This document shows positions 30,238-64,000 of a stretch of 64,000 nucleotides of DNA, in pieces (positions within the stretch are counted from its first letter, which is position 1; the number at the start of each line of letters is the position of its first letter). The notes beneath the pieces were generated by a model. It was not told the origin of the DNA. It saw nothing but the letters and a program-made list of their open reading frames with translations, and ran no database searches. Where the stretch lies: positions 1-64,000 of the forward strand of contig JANXBD010000004.1 of the NCBI GenBank assembly GCA_025057635.1. The letters are read 5' to 3'. Both the position numbers and the translations under genes were made by a program. The stretch is from Thermoflexus sp. (GTDB lineage: Bacteria > Chloroflexota > Anaerolineae > Thermoflexales > Thermoflexaceae).

Positions 30238-30523
30238 TTGTCACCTCCATTTCTAAGATCAAGAATCGAAGCGAAAATCCTGAATGATGATGCGTGTCCC
30301 TGCAGAGATCTAGAAGCGGGACTGCAAGCCCTTCGCTGCCGAATAACTGCAATCTCCCATCGATTAAGAAGCCAGCATCCCAGCAACCCTTAAGCTTGCA
30401 TGCAGATACGCTTCCCCGCGGGAAACGTCTAAGCCCCAGTGAGGTGGAAAGCACACTCCTCCTTTCTCACCTCTCACCCAGGCACCAGAATGAAGCTGGG
30501 CACCGCCCGGAGCGCGCCTGATA

Positions 30524-30913
30524 TCAACGACCGCGCAGCAAACGGATTACAGTTCGCGCCACTTGAGCGAGCCCCGCTATCACACTAGCCGCTTCAATTG
30601 TCGGACGAGCCATGTGTCGGCCTAAGAAGACACTCGTCCCATGCACCGTATCCACCGTTTCCCGAGCCCGTTGAAGGATAGGTTGGATCTCCTGCTGGAA
30701 CCAATCCAAGAGGCGGATCACTCGATAAATCAGAAAGATCCCTACGGTGGTCAACAAGAACAACTGAAGAGCAAGAGCAACGATCAGCACATCCCGCAGA
30801 ACTGCAGCGGTGGCTGGGTGCATGTAAAGAAAGACCAAGAAGACCACCATCAGGGCCAGGGCTGCCGCGCTCACAAGGATCCAGCTGACACGAGGCCAGC
30901 GATGCAAACCCAT
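30524..30913 (-). CDS. Hypothetical membrane protein (two TM helices, amphipathic C-terminus)
   Basis: MGLHRWPRVSWILVSAAALALMVVFLVFLYMHPATAAVLRDVLIVALALQLFLLTTVGIFLIYRVIRLLDWFQQEIQPIL. Start uncertain (alternative 30953). Confidence 0.55.
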   Translation of the reverse strand: MGLHRWPRVSWILVSAAALALMVVFLVFLYMHPATAAVLRDVLIVALALQLFLLTTVGIFLIYRVIRLLDWFQQEIQPILQRARETVDTVHGTSVFLGRHMARPTIEAASVIAGLAQVARTVIRLLRGR

Positions 30914-31256
30914 AGGAAACACCTGTTCTGGGATTAGTGGGCAAAAAGCCATCGTTCTGTAATACCACCCGCCAAATAGATTATAGCCGAAATATCCCCA
31001 GGATAAATGCGCCACGGCGAGTGCCTCGCGGGGGAGATCAGGCTGCCCTCTTAGCAACACGATGGATCTGATCCCCTCAGCCGGATCGGCAACTCCTGCC
31101 CCCTCACATGGATTTCACGGATTCTAGAACTGCAACATCGTCGAGCGTAGTTCCTTCAATCCAAAGAGCAGTTGAAGCAACTCCCAGCTACGTTCCAGTT
31201 TCTCAGATTTGACTGCTACGAACAATCCAACCCGTTGCGAATTCTGCGCGGAGCAG

Positions 31257-31285
31257 TTGTGCAGGGAAAGGCTTTTTGATATAAT
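31257..31285 (+). promoter_or_regulatory. Promoter upstream of the bpsA-AdoMetDC fusion
   Basis: TTGTGC (31257-31262), 17-nt spacer, TATAAT (31280-31285). Confidence 0.65.
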
Positions 31286-31555
31286 AAGCCATTGCGGATT
31301 GGATCGCATGCAGTCATGGTTTTGTTAGGATCGGCACAGCCTGCTCAGCCGCCACGCATCCATGATTGCGGGAATAGGGGGAACAGCCTGGAGGATTACC
31401 GAGTCCTCAGCATGAAAATGTCCCGTGCTGCTTCACGGCGTAGGCCAAGCAAGTATCCCGGGCGAAGGGTATGGCTTCTTTAGCTTTCGTCTTTTGACGA
31501 ACCGGTCATCACCTTGCATTGAGGTCATCTCCTCAGAGCTATTAGGTTCGCCAAC

Positions 31556-31691
31556 CAAATAGGCAGCCGTTCCGGCTTTTGGCATGCGTCGGGCGCCTCC
31601 GATGATGCCGGGTGCGGAACCCGTGCTGCCTATTTGCTTTGTAGGGAACGGTGCGTGCGGAGCCGTTTCCCTTCAGGCGCTGGAGGGCGCC
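31556..31691 (+). ncRNA. Candidate structured 5' leader RNA
   Basis: CAAATAGGCAGC (31556-31567) pairs perfectly with GCTGCCTATTTG (31625-31636). Inside it, GTTCCG (31569-31574) pairs with CGGAAC (31615-31620), and GGCATgCGTCGG (31581-31592) pairs with CCGATGATGCC (31599-31609). Further hairpins at 31644-31671 and 31676-31691. Confidence 0.55.
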
Positions 31692-31720
31692 GATCACATT
31701 CCGGGGAAAGGAGGTGAACG

Positions 31721-33244
31721 ATGGCGGGGGAGATCCTGACCCTGGGACGCTCGGAGCTGGCCCGGCTCCTGCGTGCGATCCTGCGGGAGGGGAACCCCTG
31801 GCAGGCGGCGGGCACCGCTGGGCTCCCCTTTCCACGGGTGGTCGAGGGCATCAAGCAGCTCCTCGATGCCGGAGCCCTTGCCTTCGATGGGAACCGCCTG
31901 CAACTGACCCCACGGGGCCAGGATCTGGCCCGGGATCTGGGGATTACGGTGGCCCCGGACATCCGGTGCCTTGCCTGCCAGGGGAGCGGGATCGATCTGA
32001 GCTTCTTCCAGAAGGTGACCCGGCGCTATGAGGAACTGGCCCAGGGGCGCCCCGAACCTTTGGCGGCTTACGACCAGGGCTATCAGACCATTGACTCGGT
32101 GATGCGCCGGGTGGCCCTGATGATCGCCCAGGGGGATGTGGAGGGCAAGGACGTGGTGGTGCTGGGAGATGATGACCTGGCCAGTCTCGCCTTGGCCCTG
32201 ACCGGGTTACCCCGCTCGGTCGTGGTCATCGAGATCGATCAGCGCCTGTGCGCGTTCATCGAGCAGGCCGCTCGCCGCGCCGGCCTGAACGTCACGGTCT
32301 ACTGCCGTAGCCTGACGGATCGCCTTCCCCCTGAGCTCCTGGGACAATTCGATACCTTCCTGACCGATCCGACGGAGACGGAGCATGGCCTCCTGTTGTT
32401 CCTGGAAAAGGGGTTCATGTGCCTGAAGAAGGGGGAAGGCCGCGCGGGTTACTTTGGCATCACCCGCATTGAGTCCAATATCAGCAAGTGGCACATCTGG
32501 CAGCGGGAGCTACTGAACCGGAATGCCATCACGTTCACCCACATCCTGCCCGACTTTAGCCTCTACGCCAACTGGGAGGAGCCCGAAGAACAGCCCATCC
32601 CAGACCTTCCGCCTTTCGCCCGTCCTTCCCCTGTGCCTTGGTATCGCTCGACGTTCTTCCGGGTGGAGACCCTGCCTGAGTTCCAGCCGCCGGCGGATTA
32701 TGTGATCGAAGGAGGGCAGGAACTTTACGAGGATGAGGACGCCATCGACAAGGTGTGGCGCAGTCTGGATGTGGACACTGCGATCGCTGCCTCGGTGATG
32801 ACGCCCGCTCCGACCCCCTTCCCCACCCAGCTGACCTTGGGGCGGCACGTGATCGCGGAGTTCTGGAAGTGCCGGAACCGGGAGCCCTTACGGAACCTCA
32901 AGCAGGTTCTGGAGCTCACGGTGCGCAGGGCCGGCGCCACCTTGCTGAACATGAAGATCCATCGCTTCGTCCCCGATGGCTTCTCGGCCATAGTGTTGCT
33001 TGCCGAGTCGCACATCTCCCTGCACGCCTGGCCGGAATACGCGTATGTGGCGGTCGATGTGTTCACCTGCGGGGGAGCAGATCCGGAGGTGATCGTTGAG
33101 ATGCTTAGGGACTATCTACAACCTACCGAGTCCGCTCAAATCGCCTTGGAACGTGGCTTAGGGCCCTTGTTCGTCTTGCCAGCTCTCCCTCCGGAAACTA
33201 AGGCAGCTTCTCTGGGCTCCCCACCACTTTCTAGGGGATTTTGA
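31721..33244 (+). CDS. Fusion: branched-chain polyamine synthase (BpsA/DUF43) plus S-adenosylmethionine decarboxylase (SpeH type)
   Basis: N-terminal winged-helix-like region then AYDQGYQTIDSVMRRVALMIAQGDVEGKDVVVLGDDDLASLALALTGLPRSVVVIEIDQRLCAFI...DTFLTDPTETEHGLLLFLEKG (BpsA). C-terminal LTLGRHVIAEFWKC...GATLLNMKIHRFVPDGFSAIVLLAESHISLHAWPEYAYVAVDVFTCG (AdoMetDC with ES/H cleavage site). Strong SD AAAGGAGGTG. Confidence 0.9.
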   Translation: MAGEILTLGRSELARLLRAILREGNPWQAAGTAGLPFPRVVEGIKQLLDAGALAFDGNRLQLTPRGQDLARDLGITVAPDIRCLACQGSGIDLSFFQKVTRRYEELAQGRPEPLAAYDQGYQTIDSVMRRVALMIAQGDVEGKDVVVLGDDDLASLALALTGLPRSVVVIEIDQRLCAFIEQAARRAGLNVTVYCRSLTDRLPPELLGQFDTFLTDPTETEHGLLLFLEKGFMCLKKGEGRAGYFGITRIESNISKWHIWQRELLNRNAITFTHILPDFSLYANWEEPEEQPIPDLPPFARPSPVPWYRSTFFRVETLPEFQPPADYVIEGGQELYEDEDAIDKVWRSLDVDTAIAASVMTPAPTPFPTQLTLGRHVIAEFWKCRNREPLRNLKQVLELTVRRAGATLLNMKIHRFVPDGFSAIVLLAESHISLHAWPEYAYVAVDVFTCGGADPEVIVEMLRDYLQPTESAQIALERGLGPLFVLPALPPETKAASLGSPPLSRGF

Positions 33245-63577: not shown

Positions 63578-63777
63578 TGAAAACAAAATGCCCCGCCGTG
63601 CCGTGGGCCGCTGGGCTGATGCACCCGCTCGCTTAGGTGGGGGTCTCCTGCTGGTTGCCGCCTTGACGTGCCCCGCGCGCAGGCCGTCTAACGCGTCCCC
63701 ACGCTAGAGTCCGACCCCCCTTTGAAAAGGTGTTGGCGCAAGCCGCTGAACACGACCTCACGCACACAGCCGGGCTA
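63578..63777 (-). ncRNA. Candidate ~200-nt structured small RNA (6S-like shape; family not established)
   Basis: Minus-strand promoter TTGCCT (63812-63807)/18 nt/TAAAAT (63788-63783). The 5' end GCCCGGCTGTG pairs with the 3' end CACGGCGGGGC, followed by ATTTTGTTTT. Several internal stems; no convincing ORF. Confidence 0.4.
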
Positions 63778-64000
63778 ACCTTATTTTAACCAGAGCCCCC
63801 CCCGAGAGGCAAGAAAAGTCAATCCGAAAATCCTTTCATCGGGGGTTGTTGACACCTCATCAGAGACCCGCAAGCGAATGAGGCGCCTCAGCCAGGTCTA
63901 AAACATCCCGATCAAGTGGCATCAGGAGCGTAAAAGCGTTATGATCATAATAAGGAACTACACCGTCTGACCTCTAACCGGGAGATCGGGGCGCACATTC

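Follow-up and report, generated by a model that had tools for sequence, protein, structure and literature searches.

A conserved structured leader upstream of the bpsA-speD polyamine gene in Thermoflexus, a candidate cis-acting regulatory RNA

The bpsA-speD locus and its upstream region

The window, a 64,000-nt stretch of a Thermoflexus genome (contig JANXBD010000004.1), contains a gene in which a branched-chain polyamine synthase is fused to an S-adenosylmethionine (AdoMet) decarboxylase, recognized by a Pfam match to BpsA_C (PF01861, 1.9e-67) followed by one to AdoMet_dc (PF02675, 1.7e-29). All six genomes tested possess one AdoMet_dc gene each, and it is always the bpsA-speD fusion. A separate Spermine_synth gene was seen in four other Thermoflexus genomes tested and as a weak match in G030, and was not found in the window genome, which is incomplete. 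The neighbor on the 5' side of bpsA-speD has the opposite orientation, leaving an intergenic space of ~660 nt. For comparison, we used the window genome, eight more Thermoflexus genomes (protein identity 84-95%), and G030, a member of another family of the same class with a BpsA-SpeD protein being 74% identical. The features of the locus are as follows.

31257 to 31285, + strand: sigma-70-like promoter TTGTGC-17-TATAAT, read directly from the sequence
31286 to 31555, + strand: variable 5' part of the leader, aligning poorly in relatives and probably dispensable
31556 to 31567, + strand: 5' strand of stem P1, perfect 12-bp pairing with 31625-31636
31569 to 31574, + strand: 5' strand of stem P2 (GUUCCG), pairing with 31615-31620 in the minimum free energy (MFE) fold
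31574 to 31580, + strand: 5' strand of the internal loop (RGCUUNN), GCUU invariant in 10/10 genomes
31581 to 31592, + strand: 5' strand of P3/P4 (GGCAU, bulged purine, CRUCG), its changes preserving pairing (G-U to A-U, U-A to U-G)
31593 to 31598, + strand: apical loop of changing length and sequence
31599 to 31609, + strand: 3' strand of P4/P3 (CCGAUG-AUGCC), from the MFE fold and the ten-genome comparison
31610 to 31615, + strand: 3' strand of the internal loop (GGGUGN), GGGUG invariant in 10/10 genomes
31625 to 31636, + strand: 3' strand of P1, from the MFE fold and the exact inverted repeat
31644 to 31671, + strand: second hairpin P5 (GGGAACGG / CCGUUUCCC), kept within Thermoflexus
31676 to 31691, + strand: third small hairpin P6 (GGCGCU-GGAG-GGCGCC), kept within Thermoflexus
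31698 to 31717, + strand: Shine-Dalgarno (SD) block AUUCCGGGGAAAGGAGGUGA, identical in 10/10 genomes
31721 to 33244, + strand: bpsA-speD fusion gene, 507 aa

An initial sequence-only reading of this region had proposed a consensus promoter. Its two boxes exist (TTGTGC at 31257-31262 and, 17 nt further, TATAAT at 31280-31285), with the -35 hexamer agreeing with the consensus at just three of six positions, which is why the promoter was not listed by the scanner. The promoter is retained in relatives: a -10 box (TATAAT, TAAAAT, or TACAAT), usually accompanied by TTGT at -35, lies 5' of the hairpin in all nine genomes with sufficient upstream sequence, at distances of 82, 83, 83, 83, 106, 107, 264, 268, and 280 nt. 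As a consequence of this variation, the first ~270 nt of the window leader appear dispensable, and the stretch from 31286 to about 31555 is probably outside the conserved function, with 31556-31717 representing the conserved unit. The long leader starting at 31286, originally regarded as the functional unit, is not supported as such, since its ~270 nt ahead of the hairpin are variable and reduced to ~80 nt in relatives. About 160-200 nt of 31286-31555 are missing in G001, G008, G004, G005, G007, and G030.

In parallel, a length polymorphism within the genus was observed. The window genome, G002, and G006 carry ~160-200 nt of sequence between promoter and hairpin (31286-31540) that G001 and G008 lack, and the sequence after the -10 box (..TTTGCGG) is shared by both groups despite the length difference. 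This represents an insertion or loss inside the genus Thermoflexus; the stretch is not repeated elsewhere in the window's own genome.

Architecture of the leader

The core of the leader is a hairpin of 81 nt (31556-31636), whose perfect 12-bp outer stem was confirmed as initially described. From the original succession of 12-, 6-, and 11-bp stems, P1 (12 bp) and P2 (GUUCCG/CGGAAC, 6 bp) were retained, and the 11-bp stem was replaced in the MFE fold by the internal loop followed by P3 and P4. MFE folding of the 186-nt leader yielded -88.4 kcal/mol (z -3.35, equaled by 0/200 shuffles), and the hairpin alone reached z = -5.0 (0/1000 dinucleotide shuffles equal), ranking third among 6392 sampled 81-nt windows from both strands of the 64 kb. 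Including P1, the predicted stability of the hairpin amounts to -44 kcal/mol at 37 °C and about -21 kcal/mol at 70 °C. The inner nine pairs of P1 are identical in all ten genomes, the outermost pair being lost in three, and the P2 helix is retained in G030 as GUUCC/GGAGC, shifted by one base.

Both of the smaller hairpins and the SD sequence AAAGGAGGTGA are likewise present as initially reported. Within Thermoflexus, one P5 pair is seen in three forms (A-U, G-U, and G-C), and the changes in P6 are one-sided (C-G/U-G and G-C/G-U). Neither P5 nor P6 (31644-31691) is recognizable in G030, where the spacer is ~56 nt longer.

Conservation and distribution

Each of the nine Thermoflexus genomes, and likewise G030, has the hairpin directly 5' of its bpsA-speD orthologue, so that conservation upstream of orthologues, on which the sequence-only reading had made its proposal depend, was found for 10/10 close orthologues. 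Of the 78 hairpin columns, 7 are variable across the nine genomes of the genus, compared with 153 of 223 fourfold-degenerate sites. Stretches of 80 nt in the coding sequence have at least 11 variable columns, with a median of 23, and no 80-nt coding stretch matches the conservation of the hairpin. Divergence from the window at fourfold sites amounts to 15-42% in the genus and 61% in G030, and that of the hairpin to 1-5% and 23%, respectively. Judged from these alignments, the hairpin is under strong purifying selection.

A covariance model (R1) was built from the hairpin and used to scan the ten genomes. Each genome contains exactly one strong copy (84-111 bits). Second matches of 16-33 bits come from the opposite strand of this hairpin, which resembles a palindrome, the model scoring 110 bits on the plus and 32 bits on the minus strand. 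The remainder is near chance. Because of this single copy per genome, the hairpin is not a dispersed inverted-repeat element, an explanation named from the beginning as refuting the proposal; congruently, the 435-nt leader matches only itself within its own genome. Scanning genome contigs for the internal-loop core returned 29 stretches, five of which are of the Thermoflexus type (110-111 bits). The others were dismissed as chance matches (best 18.8 bits, mostly coding sequence), and the viral sequence collection contained no match to the core. Copies of AATAGGCAGCC standing alone at other places in the genome, as well as one in L011, were also set aside, lacking the rest of the hairpin.

Extension of the scans, with stricter filters, to 396 genomes of the class and 400 of the phylum retrieved the element in Thermoflexus and G030 only. 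It is absent from the distant bpsA-speD fusions of family f43 (46-49% identity), in several genomes of which the fusion gene closely follows another coding sequence, from the examined upstream regions of separate bpsA or speD genes, and from relatives in the order of G030. Being confined to the orthologues of Thermoflexus and G030, leader and gene have therefore, as far as their distribution indicates, been co-inherited or transferred together. In summary, the comparative data show a single-copy hairpin that folds strongly and whose internal loop, RGCUUNN / GGGUGN, is invariant. It always lies behind a promoter and ahead of the bpsA-speD start codon, and it is always combined with the invariant SD block, the core 16-mer of which (TTCCGGGGAAAGGAGG) has a single exact match per genome, at bpsA-speD, in 10/10 genomes.

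RNA or DNA element

Covariation was one of the checks suggested by the sequence-only reading. In the ten sequences, 0/27 hairpin pairs have changed on both sides because the sequences are too similar, and covariation therefore speaks neither for nor against the fold. On the other hand, three stem changes preserve RNA pairing (A-U to G-U, U-A to U-G, and G-U to A-U), and pairing that tolerates G-U is not needed by a DNA site. The higher score of the model on the plus strand (110 against 32 bits) is a further strand-specific sign of an RNA. Together with the P5 pair variants, the position behind the promoter, and the SD block, these changes, although few events, favour an RNA.

A DNA-level element, e.g., the binding site of a transcription factor or a mobile inverted repeat, would account for the perfect and nearly invariant 12-bp inverted repeat. 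Nevertheless, we consider it very improbable: a single copy per genome is not dispersed, the promoter lies 82-280 nt upstream with no fixed phase, the arms are 57 bp apart with loop and SD block also being conserved, and the stem changes tolerate G-U.

The translation initiation region

The initial proposal included a switch in which CCTCC (31596-31600) pairs with the SD or with TGGAGG (31681-31686). Both motifs exist at these positions, but neither is conserved. The apical loop differs in length and sequence (GCGCCT, ACT, AATGTTAAA), on which grounds the CCTCC-SD switch was rejected, and TGGAGG reads CGGAAG in some species and is missing in G030. An exhaustive search for pairing between hairpin and SD in all ten genomes revealed just 4-5-bp helices (CCGGG/UCCGG, UGCCU/AGGUG, and UAUUU/AGGUG), and none of the leader segments conserved in the ten genomes outperforms shuffled sequence in pairing with the SD block. 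Comparing SD accessibility with and without the 5' strand of the hairpin showed small and inconsistent shifts. For the local SD helix (UUCC/GGAG), the free energy predicted at 70 °C is close to zero.

On the level of single genomes, the spacer of G030 itself beats most shuffles in SD pairing (fraction 0.03), and the P5 strand of G007 is borderline (0.07). The longer G030 spacer contains ACCUCCU (L011, about 1427-1445), an exact complement of the SD. The SD of G030 is predicted to be mostly paired, masked by this sequence; the Thermoflexus leaders do not contain an ACCUCCU anti-SD.

An open frame starting with MMPGAEPVLPICFV extends from 31602 in the hairpin to 31739, i.e., to +19 of the gene, and was judged not to be a gene. 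Its translation as an attenuator peptide overlapping the gene start would be in line with a frame open to +19 in 8/9 Thermoflexus genomes and a start kept in G030. This explanation was rejected as extremely improbable, since no SD precedes its ATG, the differences between close species are nearly all amino-acid-changing, G004 and G005 use a different middle frame by shifts that cancel, and its ends vary, extending 452 nt into the gene in G007 and stopping 49 nt before it in G030.

Proposed regulation and alternatives

Based on these data, our best reading is a cis-acting structured leader RNA of the Thermoflexus bpsA-speD mRNA that controls translation initiation, to which we assign an even chance. 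From the original suggestion of a riboregulator, the conserved structured leader and its probable cis-acting role are hereby maintained, whereas the CCTCC-SD switch is abandoned. The leader would be transcribed and fold as predicted, and the rigid hairpin would present the internal loop RGCUUNN / GGGUGN as recognition site for a signal. This signal would most likely be the state of the AdoMet/polyamine pathway, i.e., AdoMet, decarboxylated AdoMet, spermidine, or a branched polyamine, because the gene encodes the sole AdoMet decarboxylase of the cell. A polyamine or AdoMet as ligand is plausible from the gene context; a pathway metabolite ranks as the likeliest signal, followed by a protein. 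No terminator-like site was found in 30400-32000, by which an attenuator of the terminator type was rejected, so that the output would be at translation, through ribosome access to the SD block. What speaks against such cis-regulation is that the hairpin, its sequences being too similar, shows no two-sided compensatory change, that no SD-pairing partner conserved across the genomes exceeds the shuffles, and that the distribution is very narrow; moreover, opening of P1 as the switch is unlikely because of its predicted stability.

A more specific form of the cis-regulatory reading, which we put forward tentatively, is a new riboswitch class of Thermoflexus and one other Chloroflexota lineage, in which a single-hairpin aptamer binds a compound of the polyamine pathway, such as decarboxylated AdoMet, spermidine, or N4-bis(aminopropyl)spermidine, and thereby sets the translation of the sole AdoMet decarboxylase at ~70 °C. 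A P1 sequence conserved almost throughout is not usual in a simple aptamer stem, and would fit a protein site equally. A leader bound by a regulatory or ribosomal protein, or by the BpsA-SpeD enzyme itself, which represses or activates translation, has to be weighed. Its P1 sequence is frozen even in G030, beyond the needs of pairing, such a very stable hairpin is suited to a static protein site, and the element is confined to one gene; a second genomic site, as usual for a global RNA-binding regulator, is missing, as is likeness to any Rfam leader. We regard this protein-bound leader as rather doubtful.

The growth range of Thermoflexus hugenholtzii is 67.5-75 °C (PMC8129789). Such temperatures in the host genus would also suit a static element without ligand. 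This could be a 5' mRNA-stabilizing hairpin or a translation-standby structure, of use at 67-75 °C, or else an RNA thermometer acting via the weak SD helix, and the folding energies at 70 °C, with a hairpin remaining stable and a local SD helix near zero, agree with this. However, a pure stabilizer needs no invariant loop bases, bulged purine, or linker, while GCUU, GGGUG, and the SD block are invariant, and no other gene in the genome has the hairpin. We therefore consider a static element unlikely.

Regarding the leader as a cis-acting regulator, its position gives it particular relevance: in this thermophile, AdoMet is committed to linear and branched polyamines through a single gene, and the leader preceding that gene has no known relative. 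The gene fuses the enzyme making the aminopropyl donor with the branching enzyme. To our knowledge, convincing natural polyamine-sensing RNAs are few. If a polyamine or decarboxylated AdoMet were sensed, the leader would represent a second, independent solution beside the spermidine class of 2023 and would raise the question of how cells adjust their polyamine levels at high temperature. A protein-bound leader, too, would be a compact and directly testable regulatory RNA.

Relation to known RNA families

The described spermidine riboswitch is a variant of SAM-I with a four-stem junction, which acts by transcription termination in Gram-positive bacteria (Salvail, Balaji, Roth and Breaker 2023, PMC10853860). 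Common to both systems are a 5' leader RNA in front of polyamine genes including speD, here the BpsA_C and AdoMet_dc fusion, and a control point at the committed step of polyamine synthesis. The Thermoflexus leader differs by its single long hairpin with internal loop and its Chloroflexota host. Neither the SAM-I aptamer consensus nor a four-stem junction was recognized in the window and G030 leaders, both lacking an Rfam match and folding as a single hairpin, and a ligand-dependent intrinsic terminator is likewise missing within the interval examined for terminators. With the SAM-I to SAM-VI, SAH, and SAM-SAH riboswitches, the leader shares the format of a small cis-acting RNA, AdoMet being the substrate of the encoded decarboxylase; in contrast, the Rfam models of these classes have no match in either leader.

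Orphan structured-RNA motifs are similar in combining a conserved structure and an invariant internal loop adjoining one metabolic gene, as well as in their discovery by comparative sequence analysis. Most described motifs of this kind have a wider phylogenetic spread and clear covariation, whereas the Thermoflexus leader is known from one genus plus one further genome and its hairpin shows no covariation. The words riboswitch, fusion, untranslated, and Chloroflexi do not occur in a review of branched-chain polyamines from 2026, and among the papers searched none combines Thermoflexus and riboswitch. The leader element is real, conserved, and apparently undescribed.

Screening against Rfam 15 bore out the initial impression that riboswitch consensuses such as SAM-I, THF, guanidine, and preQ1 are not matched. 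Neither the window leader (E<=10) nor the G030 leader (E<=5) gave a match, and at gathering thresholds the whole window returned nothing at the bpsA-speD leader. Elsewhere in the window, a 6S RNA (RF00013) was recorded on the minus strand at 63586-63778, its 48.1 bits being slightly above the gathering score of 46.4.
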